The notes below the pieces were generated by a model, which was given only the letters and a program-made list of their open reading frames with translations, had not been told where the DNA came from and ran no database searches. Made by a program: the position numbers and the translations under genes. A stretch of DNA of 64,000 nt from Acidobacteriota bacterium (GTDB lineage: Bacteria; Actinomycetota; Actinomycetes; Actinomycetales; Microbacteriaceae). The stretch covers positions 104,120 to 168,119 of the forward strand of contig JABBOD010000001.1 of the NCBI GenBank assembly GCA_019351995.1, written 5' to 3'. Below, piece by piece: positions 55,641-64,000 of the stretch (position 1 is its first letter; each line of letters opens with the position of its first letter).

Positions 55641-56114
55641 TCAGCAGTCGCAGCTGATGACGCCGCCCGATGCCGGGCGCGGGCTCGTCAGCTCGTCGAC
55701 CGTTCGCACCACCGGGCCGTCATCGTCGACGACCGGGTGCCCTTCGCGCGCCCAGTACTCGAAGCCTCCCATCAGCTCGCGCACCTCGTAGCCCAGTCGG
55801 CTGAAGTGGAGCGCCGCCCTCGTCGAGCCGTTGCATCCCGGCCCCCAGCAGTAGACGACCACCGGAACGCCTGGCGGGATCTCGGATGCGGCGCGCTCGG
55901 CGATCTCCGCCGTTGGCAGGTGGATCGCGCCGACCGCTCGCCCCTGATGCCACGCCGCGTGCCCGCGGGTGTCGACCAGCACGAACCGTTCGCCGGCGGA
56001 CTGGGCCGCGGCGACATCCGACGGATCCGTCTCGTAGCGTAGCTTCGCGGCGAAGTGCTCGATCGCAGCCAACGTCGCGGGACTCGCGATGGGGTCGCTC
56101 GTGGTCAATGTCAT
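55641..56114 (-). CDS. Single-domain rhodanese with extra C-terminal tail
   Basis: A 157-residue sulfurtransferase-like protein: FVLVDTRGHAAWHQGRAVGAIHLP, the active loop C-N-G-S-T-R starting with C94 (context VYCWGPGCNGSTRAAL), and ELMGGFEYWAREGHPV. It has a C-terminal extension with C-D-C at its end. Handles sulfane sulfur or phosphate esters. ATG at 56114 is 6 nt after a TAGCGT box. It follows the prp regulator region but is transcribed separately. Confidence 0.9.
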   Translation of the reverse strand: MTLTTSDPIASPATLAAIEHFAAKLRYETDPSDVAAAQSAGERFVLVDTRGHAAWHQGRAVGAIHLPTAEIAERAASEIPPGVPVVVYCWGPGCNGSTRAALHFSRLGYEVRELMGGFEYWAREGHPVVDDDGPVVRTVDELTSPRPASGGVISCDC

Positions 56115-60089: not shown

Positions 60090-60131
60090 GCGAGCACGCG
60101 ATCGTCGGGACGAAAGGCCCTGGCCCCGACA

Positions 60132-60145
60132 TACCCCAGGGGGTA
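60132..60145. promoter_or_regulatory. CsoR/CstR-like operator of the sulfide operon
   Basis: TACCCC-AG-GGGGTA is a perfect palindrome 35 nt before the first gene. It matches the C-tract/G-tract operators of CsoR-family repressors; the persulfide sensor CstR binds such sites in front of rhodanese, CoA-disulfide reductase and SQR genes. The gene content downstream fits CstR better than a copper-sensing CsoR. No CsoR-family gene is in the window. Confidence 0.75.
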
Positions 60146-60180
60146 ACTTCCGAGAAAAGTACACGAAGGAGAAGGTTCTC

Positions 60181-60399
60181 ATGGGCATCATCAAGTTCCT
60201 CGGTTCCACCCCCGGTCGCTGGACGCGCGGCATCGTCGGGATCGCCATCGCCGCCATCGGCATCGTCCTCGGCGGATGGTGGTTCATCCTCGCCGCCGTC
60301 GGCGTCGTGGTCTTCCTGGCCGGCGCATTGGACTTCTGCCTCTTCGCCCCGCTGCTCGGCAAGCCGTTCCGCGGGTCCGAACTCCGCGCCTCGTTCTAG
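60181..60399 (+). CDS. YgaP-type (DUF2892) small membrane protein
   Basis: A 72-residue protein with two helices (RWTRGIVGIAIAAIGIVLGG and FILAAVGVVVFLAGALDFCLF) and the DUF2892 motif DFCLFAPLLG with its cysteine. In YgaP this domain follows a rhodanese and is linked to sulfur transport at the membrane. ATG at 60181 has the strong site GAAGGAG (60165-60171). First gene of the sulfide operon, 18 nt ahead of the fusion gene. Confidence 0.88.
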   Translation: MGIIKFLGSTPGRWTRGIVGIAIAAIGIVLGGWWFILAAVGVVVFLAGALDFCLFAPLLGKPFRGSELRASF

Positions 60400-60417
60400 G
60401 CGGAGGGCGACGCACGC

Positions 60418-62937
60418 GTGAAGATCGTCGTTGTCGGTGGGGTCGCCGGCGGTGCCTCCGTCGCGGCCCGGGCCCGAAGGCTCGATGAGAGCGCGGACAT
60501 CCTGGTGCTTGAGCGGGGCCACCATGTGTCGTTCGCGAACTGCGGCCTGCCGTACCACATCGGCGAGGTCATCGCCGATCGCAGCAGACTGCTGCTGCAG
60601 ACACCCGAGAGCCTGCACGAGTCACTCGACATCGAGGTTCGGGTCGGCCATGAGGTGCTCTCCATCGACCGGCCGACGCGCACGGTCACCGTTCGCGAGC
60701 TGTCGACGGGACGTGAATACTCCGAGAGCTACGATGCCCTCGCGCTCTGCGCCGGTGCCGAGCCCGCCCGTCCGCCGCTGCCCGGGATCGACCTGCCCGG
60801 CATTCACGTGTTGCGTCGCATCGGCGACATGGATGCCATCAAGTCCGAGCTCGATGCGGCCCTCGCTGCCGCCGGGGCCGGCACGCGGGCTGCCGTGCAC
60901 TGCGTCGTCATCGGAGCCGGATACATCGGGCTCGAGATGGCGGAGAACCTGATCCATCGCGGTGCGATCGTCGATGTCGTGGAGATGGCCGACCAGATCC
61001 TGCCGCCGCTCGATCACGAGATCTCGGTCCCGGTGGAGCGGCACCTGCGGAGTCGTGGCGTCGCCCTGCACCTCGCCACCGCGGCCGCCGCCTTCACTCC
61101 GCGTTCCGGCGGCGGGCTCACGGTCGAACTCACCAACTCGACCTTCCTCGACGCCGATCTGGTCATCCTCTCCGCCGGCGTACGCCCATCGGTGGAGCTT
61201 GCTCGCGCCGCGGGAATCGAGCTGGGGCCGCACGGCGGCATCAAGGTCGACACCCACATGCAGACCTCCGACTCGCGGATCTGGGCCGCTGGCGACTCGG
61301 TCGAGACCGCGAACACCGTGCTGGCGGGCACGTGGATCGCCCCGCTCGCCGGACCAGCAAACCGCGAGGCACGGGTTGCCGCCGAGAACATCTGTGGCAG
61401 GTCGACCGAGTATCGCTCGACCCAGGGCACGTCGATCGTCAAGGTGTTCGACATGGTCGCGGGCGGCACCGGGGCCACGGAGCGCCAGCTTCTCGCCGCC
61501 GGACAGGAGTACCGCGCGGTGCACGTGCACCCATCCGGCCATGCCGGCTACTACCCCGGCACCGCGATGATGCACATCAAGCTGCTGTTCGCGCCCGACA
61601 CCGGCCGCATCCTCGGCGCCCAGGTCGCCGGGTTCGACGGAGTCGACAAGCGCCTCGACGTCTTCGCCACCGCGCTCCGCGCCGAGTTGACGGTGTGGGA
61701 CCTCGAGGAGTTGGAACTCGCATACGCGCCGCCGTTCGGCTCGGCGAAGGACCCCGTGAACATGGCCGGCTTCGTCGCGAGCAACGTGCTGCTCGGCGAC
61801 CTCGTGCTCTGGTACGCCCAGGACTATCCGCACGCCATCGACGGTGCCCGCATCATCGACGTCCGCACGTCAGAGGAGTTCACGCTGTGGCATCTCCCCG
61901 GCGCCGAGAACGTGCCGATCGACACCATCCGTGAGGTGAGCGCCGAGTGGGACCGGGCCGCACCCCTCCGGCTCTACTGCACGGTCGGGTTCCGGAGCTA
62001 CCTCGTCTACCGCTCACTCGTGCAGCGCGGATTCACCGATGTCGCCACCCTCTCGGGAGGTTCGGAGACATTCAGAGCCTGGCACGAACTCGAGCCAGAT
62101 AGCGCCGAACCCACTCCCGCGGTGATGCCGTACGCCGAAGCCGTCGACGTGATCGCCGAGGCCGGCCATCGCCTCGCCATCGCGGAGGGAACAGGCGTCT
62201 CCGTCGACTTGGATTGCTCGGGCCTGGCCTGCCCCGGCCCGATCATGAAGCTCGCCCAGACGATGAAGCCGCTCAGCGCGGGGGACGAGATCGTGGTCCA
62301 TGTCTCCGATCCCGGCTTCGCGCTCGATGGTCCCGCCTGGGCCAAGCGCAACGGTCACCAGTTGATCGGAATCACTCCGGAGGGTCCCGGCTACGTCGCG
62401 ACCCTGCGCAAGGGCGGTGCGGCGCCGGCGCCGAGCGGTCACGCGCTCGCCGCAGCTGCGCCCGCACCCCCCAAGCTGTCGTTCGTCATCTTCGATGGCG
62501 ACCTCGACAAGCTCATCGCGGCATTCATCATCGCCAATGGCGCGATCGCCATGGGGGAAGAGGTCTCGATGTTCTTCACCTTCTGGGGGCTCAACGCCCT
62601 CCGCCGCTCTGACCCGCCCAGGCGCAAGCGCAGCGCGCTCGACACCGTGTTCGGGGCGATGATGCCCCGGGGCGCCGAGAAGCTCTCGCTCTCGCAGCTG
62701 AACATGATGGGTGCCGGCGCGGCGATGATCAAGGGCGTCATGAAGAAGAACGGGGTGCATTCGCTCCCGGAACTGATCGCCTCGGCTCAAGCAGGTGGCG
62801 CCCGCATCATCGGCTGCACCATGACCATGGACCTGCTGGGCATCGCCGAATCCGATCTGATCGATGGGATCGAACTGGGCGGCGTCGCCACCTTCCTCGG
62901 CGAGGCCGCGGAGTCGACGTCCACTCTCTTCATTTAG
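60418..62937 (+). CDS. Four-domain persulfide enzyme: CoA-disulfide reductase-rhodanese-TusA-DsrE
   Basis: The 839-residue product joins four sulfur modules. First, an FAD/NAD CoA-disulfide (persulfide) reductase (about 1-450; IVVVGGVAGGASVAARAR, active C42 in VSFANCGLPYHIG, VIGAGYIGLEMAENL). Second, a rhodanese (about 465-560) with C521 in LYCTVGFRSYL. Third, a TusA domain (about 597-670) with C600 and the C605-P motif (DCSGLACPGPIMKL). Fourth, a DsrE-like domain (about 685-839) with C800 in IIGCTMTMDLLG. It likely passes persulfide sulfur between its cysteines and reduces CoA-persulfide. GTG at 60418. Confidence 0.93.
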   Translation: MKIVVVGGVAGGASVAARARRLDESADILVLERGHHVSFANCGLPYHIGEVIADRSRLLLQTPESLHESLDIEVRVGHEVLSIDRPTRTVTVRELSTGREYSESYDALALCAGAEPARPPLPGIDLPGIHVLRRIGDMDAIKSELDAALAAAGAGTRAAVHCVVIGAGYIGLEMAENLIHRGAIVDVVEMADQILPPLDHEISVPVERHLRSRGVALHLATAAAAFTPRSGGGLTVELTNSTFLDADLVILSAGVRPSVELARAAGIELGPHGGIKVDTHMQTSDSRIWAAGDSVETANTVLAGTWIAPLAGPANREARVAAENICGRSTEYRSTQGTSIVKVFDMVAGGTGATERQLLAAGQEYRAVHVHPSGHAGYYPGTAMMHIKLLFAPDTGRILGAQVAGFDGVDKRLDVFATALRAELTVWDLEELELAYAPPFGSAKDPVNMAGFVASNVLLGDLVLWYAQDYPHAIDGARIIDVRTSEEFTLWHLPGAENVPIDTIREVSAEWDRAAPLRLYCTVGFRSYLVYRSLVQRGFTDVATLSGGSETFRAWHELEPDSAEPTPAVMPYAEAVDVIAEAGHRLAIAEGTGVSVDLDCSGLACPGPIMKLAQTMKPLSAGDEIVVHVSDPGFALDGPAWAKRNGHQLIGITPEGPGYVATLRKGGAAPAPSGHALAAAAPAPPKLSFVIFDGDLDKLIAAFIIANGAIAMGEEVSMFFTFWGLNALRRSDPPRRKRSALDTVFGAMMPRGAEKLSLSQLNMMGAGAAMIKGVMKKNGVHSLPELIASAQAGGARIIGCTMTMDLLGIAESDLIDGIELGGVATFLGEAAESTSTLFI

Positions 62938-63006
62938 CACCAACCCGCGCCCGGCAGCCGCCGAACGCGTTCACCGAAATCACTCACTGGATGGGCGGAT
63001 GTCACC

Positions 63007-64000
63007 ATGACGCGAGTCGTCGTGCTGGGAGCTGGGGTCTCGGGTCACACCGCAGCGCTCTACCTCAAGAAGAAGCTGGGCCGAGCGCACGAGGTGGTGG
63101 TCGTCTCCCCGAACTCGAAGTGGAACTGGATCCCCTCCAACATCTGGGTGGGCGTCGGTCGGATGTCTGCCACGAAGGTCGTCTTCCCGCTTGCTCCGAT
63201 CTACCGCCGTACGGGCATCGACTTCCGGCAGGCCAAAGCCGTCGGGATCCTGCCCGAGGGTGATGCCGACGACCCACGTGGCGCTGTCGATGTGGTGTCC
63301 ACCGCACCGGGGACCGTCGGCCGCACCGAGCGCATCCGCTACGACTACCTCATCAACGCCACCGGCCCGAAGCTGAACTTCGCCGCGACCCCTGGCCTTG
63401 GACCGGACGGCGGATTTACGGCGTCGGTGTGCACCCCCGGGCACGCCGTCGACGCTGCCGGGCGCTTGGCCGCGACGATCGAGAAGCTGAAGGCCGGCAT
63501 CCGCCAGACCCTCGTGATCGGGGTCGGGCACGGCAGCTGCACCTGCGAGGGCGCCGCCTTCGAGTACGCCTTCAACGTCGAGCATGAGCTGCGCGCGGCG
63601 GGAGTGCGCGACCGGGCCGACGTGCTGTATCTCAGCAATGAGCACGAGCTCGGCGATTTCGGGGTCGGCGGAATGACCTTCAGCACGCGGGACGGGCAGG
63701 TCACCAGCGAGAAATGGATGGCGTCCCTGTTCCGCGAGCGCGGCATTCGGGCAATCGTCCAGGCGGCCCCCACCGAGATCGACGCTGACACCATCACCTA
63801 CCGGCAGATCGACGGCAGCACGAGCACGCAGCACTACGATTTCGCGATGCTGCTTCCACCCTTCGGCGGGGTCGGACTGACCGCGACCGACCGCGCGGGC
63901 GTCGACATCACCTCGAAGATCTTCGCGCCATCGGGCTTCATGCGGGTCGACGCGGACTACCGCCCGCGGCCGTTCGAGGAGTGGACCGCCGCGGACTGGC
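63007..64000 (+). CDS. SQR-like FAD oxidoreductase (3' truncated by window end)
   Basis: The frame is open from ATG 63007 to the window end (331 codons visible). N-terminal FAD fold VVVLGAGVSGHTAALYLKKK, then VVSPNSKWNWIPSNIWVGVG (sulfide:quinone oxidoreductase pattern), and a cysteine pair in GVGHGSCTCEGAAFEYAFN around residue 180, a place where SQR-group enzymes hold a redox cysteine. Its position after the CoA-disulfide reductase fusion supports oxidation of sulfide to persulfide with quinone as acceptor. The missing C-terminus would show the membrane-attachment helix. A 69-nt gap with cacc(atg) precedes it; it is likely in the same operon. Confidence 0.85.
   Translation, partial: MTRVVVLGAGVSGHTAALYLKKKLGRAHEVVVVSPNSKWNWIPSNIWVGVGRMSATKVVFPLAPIYRRTGIDFRQAKAVGILPEGDADDPRGAVDVVSTAPGTVGRTERIRYDYLINATGPKLNFAATPGLGPDGGFTASVCTPGHAVDAAGRLAATIEKLKAGIRQTLVIGVGHGSCTCEGAAFEYAFNVEHELRAAGVRDRADVLYLSNEHELGDFGVGGMTFSTRDGQVTSEKWMASLFRERGIRAIVQAAPTEIDADTITYRQIDGSTSTQHYDFAMLLPPFGGVGLTATDRAGVDITSKIFAPSGFMRVDADYRPRPFEEWTAADW

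Follow-up and report, generated by a model that had tools for sequence, protein, structure and literature searches.

The 64-kb window analysed here (G000:C28:104120-168119, i.e., part of contig C28 of its own genome G000, which comprises 2.88 Mb on 91 contigs) ends in an operon that starts behind the operator-like palindrome ATACCCCAGGGGGTA and encodes a YgaP-like transmembrane protein, a fusion protein of four modules and a flavoprotein resembling sulfide:quinone oxidoreductase (SQR). The SQR-like gene crosses the window end and is completed on L007, the contig stretch that holds the operon and reaches past the window, where it is followed by a gene for a small protein (Table 1). The initial annotation had described a sulfide/persulfide detoxification operon behind a CstR-like operator; its observation was confirmed and its interpretation partly supported. 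New are the pair of SQR and small-protein genes and the genome-wide set of operator copies; the small gene, which the initial annotation could not see beyond the window end, carries more of the novelty.

SQR and the small protein encoded behind it

SQR is an entry enzyme of bacterial sulfide oxidation, and to our knowledge it has been treated so far as needing no other subunit. The flavoprotein of the window is likely, as a prediction from its sequence, such an enzyme. Its best PDB sequence match is a sulfide-quinone reductase (3sx6 / 3t2y, E 5.5e-33), presumably that of Acidithiobacillus ferrooxidans, in which C142 and C180 have cysteine counterparts. C142, C180 and C414 were invariant in 81 SQR sequences, C178 was retained in 79 of the 81, and we infer that C414 is the third active-site cysteine.

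A scan of genome contigs found 301 relatives of this SQR, of which 80, chosen by SQR similarity, were kept with their flanks and searched with a small-protein profile built from ten copies (E <= 0.01). The profile detected the small protein at 77 of the 80 loci, one per locus and adjoining SQR, and at the remaining three (L095, L111, L119) it was visible on the reading frames behind SQR. A recognisable small-protein gene is accordingly present behind SQR in 80/80 loci, once fused in frame to SQR (L051) and once with a broken frame (L052); these two aside, the script-chosen starts lie 2-79 nt after the SQR stop. In 76 copies the length is 46-58 residues, and the motif Q-x-x-(R/K/H)-F is kept in 74 of these. 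The loci belong mostly to Actinomycetota and span Cryobacterium, Agromyces, Demequina, Propionibacteriaceae, Kineosporia and Nocardioides, as well as Acidimicrobiaceae, Nanopelagicaceae, Boudabousia, Thermoleophilia, metagenome-assembled genomes (MAGs) labelled Acidobacteria and a Campylobacterales MAG contig with a GC content of 31%. A natural fusion of SQR and small protein occurs in Cryobacterium (P0152, 544 residues, eight member sequences on four contigs; also L051).

Because these 80 loci had been picked by similarity, two even draws of genomes, from the phylum and from the family, were examined as well. In the phylum draw, 3/396 genomes, the own one included, encode an SQR (E <= 1e-40), with the small protein behind it in all three; the SQR of G516 is only 45-46% identical, and the small protein still lies directly behind it (partial profile match, E 2.7e-4, positions 15-46). 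The phylum-wide profile search for the small protein gave matches in 4/396 genomes; the fourth, a partial one in G472 (positions 9-34, E 1.6e-4), lies in a fetched stretch that lacks an SQR and is either a chance hit or an orphan copy. In the family draw, SQR (E <= 1e-60) was found in 10/299 genomes, again with the own one, and the small protein in 10 of these 10; the worst true match had an E value of 3.7e-10 and the next best one of 0.28. Earlier single-sequence searches had detected the small protein in only 3/150 family genomes and, in a separate search, in 8 proteins because of their low sensitivity, as G082 and G145 of the same family draw have diverged copies. In G549 (L170) and G586 (L173) the small protein has only 32 residues and keeps the helix with the Q-x-x-R-F core.

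The small protein is under purifying selection. Among 30 copies of 47 residues, the pooled ratio of nonsynonymous to synonymous changes (pN/pS) was 0.31, 0.41 and 0.48 at SQR identities of 90-100, 80-90 and 70-80% (27, 76 and 47 pairs), compared with 1.17/1.73, 0.98/1.50 and 1.00/1.39 for the two shifted frames in the same bins. No model scored above its cut-off in Pfam (five members searched) or NCBIfam (four members), the best match below cut-off being PF07359 (E 0.12, one member); a profile search of the PDB ended at E 0.23, and literature listings, covering openly licensed PMC papers, showed nothing about a small protein beside SQR. AlphaFold2 (50-row alignment) predicted helices at residues 3-9, 16-23 and 25-46 with a mean predicted local distance difference test (pLDDT) of 81.8; the helix 25-46 (block pLDDT 82-94) carries the Q-x-x-basic-F core, and the N-terminus is variable.

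The fixed gene linkage and the natural fusion make the small protein a likely working partner of SQR. SQR itself is described as a monotopic membrane-bound flavoprotein (PMC9666304; here and below, statements from cited papers refer to the portions of their text that were available). We infer that this SQR clade may be a two-gene enzyme with the small protein as its membrane-side subunit or anchor. The small protein might instead be a separate regulator or assembly factor in the operon, serving, e.g., the stability or insertion of SQR without being a subunit, an explanation to which we give a real but minor share of the probability: the protein is basic and predicted to be helical, it has no enzyme domain in the libraries searched, and fixed linkage speaks for a joint function, which is not proof of a complex. 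On the other hand, the in-frame fusion P0152 argues for physical proximity, and the linkage is kept down to 46% SQR identity in G516.

The widest form of the subunit reading holds that the whole SQR clade, from Actinomycetota to Campylobacterota, is two-component, with a helical Q-x-x-basic-F protein of 32-58 residues as obligatory membrane subunit, and that a CstR-type operator here joins the pair to the four-module fusion; we rate its chances slightly below even. Some points count against the partner role of the small protein. The 80 loci were picked by SQR similarity, and the even draws overlap them in part (the genome of G078 is apparently that of L057), while the copies of G000 and G070 were contained in the profile used for the family draw. 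At SQR identities of 60-70% (285 pairs), pN/pS rose to 0.79, near saturation, versus 0.88/1.12 in the shifted frames. An amphipathic surface helix was considered and rejected, the hydrophobic moment of the window genome's copy being no better than that of shuffled sequences (1005/2000 reach it). Should a large clade indeed depend on such a partner throughout, assays of SQR alone may have characterised an incomplete enzyme, and annotation by protein family would overlook the small gene that marks this clade.

The operator-like site and its candidate repressors

The palindrome ATACCCCAGGGGGTA consists of the arms TACCCC and GGGGTA with the spacer AG, and the first start codon follows 35 nt further on. 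It was correctly placed before the genes for the YgaP-like protein, the fusion and the SQR-like protein, and the core ACCCCnnGGGGT occurs in the 64-kb window at this site only. The earlier designation as CstR-like is also supported, as ATACCCCAGGGGGTAA agrees in 9 of 10 fixed bases with ATACCn6GGTAT, the site reported for the sulfane-sulfur repressor ScCsoR of Streptomyces coelicolor (PMC7533328). In the whole genome, ATACCCCnnGGGGTA is present as exact copies at eight places (Table 1), and with up to two mismatches it gave 16 + 19 strand matches versus 6 + 6 for the control read backwards. Sulfur-relay or thioredoxin genes adjoin six of the eight exact sites, that of the present operon among them, and at three of those six a CstR-like gene is part of the same or the divergent unit.

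Table 1. Positions of the operon features, neighbouring genes and exact operator copies (window numbering unless a contig or locus is given)
Feature	Position	Strand	Remark
Operator-like palindrome	60131-60145	.	Putative; CstR/CsoR-type by sequence
YgaP-like transmembrane protein, 72 aa	60181-60399	+	PF11127, 28.2 bits (cut-off 25.3)
Four-module fusion, 839 aa	60418-62937	+	Pfam, NCBIfam and PDB relatives
SQR-like flavoprotein, 486 aa	63007-64000 in window; full 63007-64467-equivalent (L007:7127-8587)	+	
Small-protein gene, 47 aa	L007:8617-8760 (window-equivalent 64497-64640)		Outside window, 29 nt behind SQR
Stand-alone rhodanese	55641-56114		<5 kb upstream of operon
Molybdopterin-binding oxidoreductase, 549 aa	57785-59434		PF00174; <5 kb upstream of operon
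Exact site	C16:49094		Between CstR-like gene and thioredoxin + rhodanese
Exact site	C16:52301		Precedes CoADR-Rhd of 565 aa (L028:6590-8287)
Exact site	C17:46372		Precedes thioredoxin; CstR-like gene next
Exact site	C20:14617 (L031:14618)		Multicopper oxidase ~0.4 kb away
Exact site	C28:164250		Present operon
Exact site	C28:185429		Between two divergent genes, one DsrE-like, ~230 nt off
Exact site	C60:5223		Precedes CoADR-Rhd-Rhd (657 aa, L033:5287-7260), rhodanese, CstR-like gene
Exact site	C61:12546 (L034:7548)		Precedes cysteine-rich open reading frame
Cysteine-rich open reading frame, 44 aa	L034:7385-7519 (C61)		Start 29 nt from exact site

The genome holds three fusions of a CoA-disulfide reductase (CoADR)-type module, of growing length, with rhodanese (Rhd), Rhd-Rhd or Rhd-TusA-DsrE2, each in a unit that starts behind an exact operator copy. 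This natural series would lend itself to testing what the TusA and DsrE2 modules add. The cysteine-rich open reading frame of 44 residues on C61 (MCYRITCDVCGLETWGGCGAHVEE...), for which a Pfam search gave no match at E <= 0.001, is possibly a small member of the same regulon.

The repressor had been expected just downstream of the operon or elsewhere. The first option failed, as no gene called on L007 over the 11.4 kb behind SQR looks CsoR-like (translations read by eye) and none was found on C28; the second is supported by six PF02583 (CsoR family) matches in the genome. CstR-type proteins are told apart from copper CsoRs by two cysteines and the absence of the copper-site histidine. The CsoR-family proteins of C16, C17 and C60 carry the cysteine pair but not the histidine present in the other three, so that they are predicted to be CstR-like; their genes are neighbours of sulfur or thioredoxin genes that have a copy of the same operator. 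Two of these three proteins were searched against the PDB and matched best 7mq3/7mq1, deposited as 'csoR' and in our assumption the CstR of Enterococcus faecalis. The best PDB matches of the C82 protein are copper CsoRs, and the neighbours of the three remaining CsoR-family genes were read as copper genes (from translations only). Since all six genes lie off contig C28, the repressor of the present operon is likely encoded in trans, with the three CstR-like genes as candidates.

Control of the operator by a copper CsoR instead of a CstR-like sensor of sulfur appears quite improbable, albeit not without indications. One of the eight identical sites adjoins a multicopper oxidase, near-copies with two mismatches adjoin two of the non-CstR-like CsoR-family genes, and the operators of copper-sensing and sulfur-sensing family members are similar (PMC7533328); a copper CsoR could therefore compete for, or share, sites with the sulfur sensors. 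The sulfur sensor is favoured by the sulfur-relay and thioredoxin genes at the majority of the exact sites, at three of which the same or the divergent unit also includes a CstR-like gene.

A related site, ATACCn6GGTA, was found within 250 nt upstream of SQR in 49/80 loci, whereas the remaining 1,000,873 bases of these loci contain 44 such sites (0.011 per 250 nt). Of the nine family-draw loci whose upstream sequence was long enough, six have it before SQR; the present operon counts among the other three because its site stands two genes earlier. Within 1.2 kb after SQR, a CsoR-family gene is present in 22/80 loci, a CoADR-type gene likewise in 22/80 and both in 19; in 21 of the 22 loci with a CoADR-type gene the match extends into the rhodanese part of the model, and in the remaining one a contig end interrupts it. 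These counts reveal a recurrent order of operator, SQR, small protein, CsoR-family gene and CoADR-Rhd, and the window joins the four-module version of the fusion to the pair of SQR and small protein.

The four-module fusion

The modules proposed in the initial annotation, TusA and DsrE-like domains included, were recovered by Pfam profiles: Pyr_redox_2 (residues 1-295, 195.5 bits), Pyr_redox_dim (340-441), rhodanese (476-552, 42.9 bits), TusA (597-665, 61.0 bits) and DrsE_2 (686-838, 176.4 bits). They make up a CoADR-type flavoprotein (1-451) with C42 in the active-site motif SFANCGLPY, a rhodanese with C521, a TusA module with C605 in a CPGP motif and a DsrE2 module with C800, all in this order. 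The four cysteines are at the positions originally given and do not vary among 44 aligned sequences, i.e., the fusion and 43 relatives hand-picked from the 120 listed. In the PDB, residues 2-555 are matched best by CoADR-Rhd-type chains and residues 686-839 by a putative sulfurtransferase DsrE.

The joining of all four modules had been regarded as unusual, a view that has to be abandoned. Bacteroides fragilis BF638R_0572 combines CoA-disulfide reductase, rhodanese, TusA and DsrE/DsrF/DrsH-like domains in one chain (PMC6158253), and a search with residues 580-839 of the fusion scored 7985 proteins, 7543 of them at E <= 0.001; the best 120 of these 7543 all carry PF07992, PF00581, PF01206 and PF13686 in 589-871 residues. 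The CoADR-rhodanese-TusA-DsrE2 chain is an already known architecture. DrsE_2 was found in 5/150 family genomes, always in open frames of 845-898 residues, in 0/2 sampled congeners (one genome 87% complete) and in 145/396 phylum genomes, where the window's fusion is the single one among the matches listed whose frame exceeds 800 residues.

An AlphaFold2 model of the fusion (44-row alignment) reached a pLDDT of 73.5 and a predicted template modelling score (pTM) of 0.54 and does not position the modules against one another or show a rigid channel between them; stretches of low confidence lie between the modules at 561-591 and 668-682. A tethered relay, in which sulfur would be handed over inside the chain without free carriers as first suggested, would fit the invariant cysteines and these low-confidence linkers.

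The fusion might serve mainly thiol/disulfide redox balance (CoA disulfide, oxidative stress) or biosynthetic sulfur delivery, with sulfide detoxification being secondary. The loss of the B. fragilis four-domain protein, which is under the MarR-type regulator BmoR, raises diamide sensitivity (PMC6158253), and four other family loci have the fusion without an operator site (15-16 kb around each) and without an SQR called beside it. A role of the fusion as a regular CstR target was rejected on account of the missing site at these four relatives. In the present operon, however, the fusion and the SQR gene after it share a strand and an operator-like site of which other sulfur genes have copies, and in L058 (84% SQR identity) the C-terminal part of the fusion, cut by the contig end, also lies directly before SQR. 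Redox balance or biosynthetic sulfur delivery as the main function is considered unlikely.

Upstream of the operon, the window contains a stand-alone rhodanese and a molybdopterin-binding oxidoreductase with PF00174, the fold of sulfite oxidases (Table 1). Scans of the window for tRNAs and Rfam families found none.

Proposed sulfur route and comparison with known systems

Our preferred reading, with a probability of roughly 0.6, is that the operon is a repressor-switched sulfide/persulfide detoxification unit in which SQR and the small protein feed the four-module fusion. SQR makes sulfane sulfur. Reactive sulfur would modify the CstR-like repressor, which would release the operator-like site and switch the operon on. 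The predicted SQR would then oxidise sulfide at the membrane, likely together with the 47-residue protein, which may serve this SQR clade as an anchor, an assembly factor or a subunit on the membrane side; a thiol, e.g., CoA, would accept the sulfane sulfur from SQR. On the tethered rhodanese, TusA and DsrE2 domains, C521, C605 and C800 may pass the sulfane sulfur along, and the N-terminal CoADR module may reduce CoA persulfide with NAD(P)H; alternatively, sulfur could leave via TusA/DsrE2 to another acceptor. The frame for this route comes from CoAPR, CstA and ScCsoR (PMC9405070, PMC9918477, PMC7533328), according to which rhodanese, TusA and DsrE modules carry persulfide, CoADR-type flavoproteins reduce CoA persulfide and sulfane-sulfur modification makes CstR-type repressors let go.

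Several findings run counter to this reading, besides the four family loci and the copper-related site discussed above. In the NCBIfam search, no named SQR type model scored above its cut-off, and NF049943, a type III selenoprotein model, reached 39.9-41.8 bits versus a cut-off of 525. Likewise, TIGR03385 (CoA-disulfide reductase) gave 442.7 bits, below its cut-off of 578.8, for which reason the fusion is termed CoADR-type and not CoA-disulfide reductase. The site ATACCn6GGTA is absent within 250 nt of SQR in 31/80 loci. Finally, SQR followed by a persulfide reductase could amount to a futile cycle.

Known systems share individual parts with the unit proposed here. BF638R_0572 of B. fragilis has the same four domains in the same order, but its regulator BmoR is of the MarR type and the available text mentions no SQR partner (PMC6158253). 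An N-terminal flavoprotein with a C-terminal rhodanese, as in the fusion, is found in E. faecalis CoAPR, which is under CstR control (PMC9405070), and in PDB 3nta, 3icr and 8a56; the PDB chains of this CoADR-Rhd type, however, have 571-588 residues, match the fusion only up to residue 555 and include no TusA/DsrE2 module. Staphylococcus aureus CstA likewise fuses DsrE-, rhodanese- and TusA-type modules and is clustered with sqr, whereas a CoADR module is not mentioned in the accessible part of that paper (PMC9918477). In S. coelicolor, the ScCsoR circuit relies, as proposed for the present operon, on a CsoR-family sulfane-sulfur repressor with the site ATACCn6GGTAT, but its targets are a persulfide dioxygenase, a rhodanese and a sulfite transporter, and the portion of the report at hand names neither SQR nor a small protein (PMC7533328). 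The SQR of PDB 3sx6 / 3t2y is homologous to that of the window over residues 1-325, including the two aligned cysteines, and differs in its length of 434-437 versus 486 residues.

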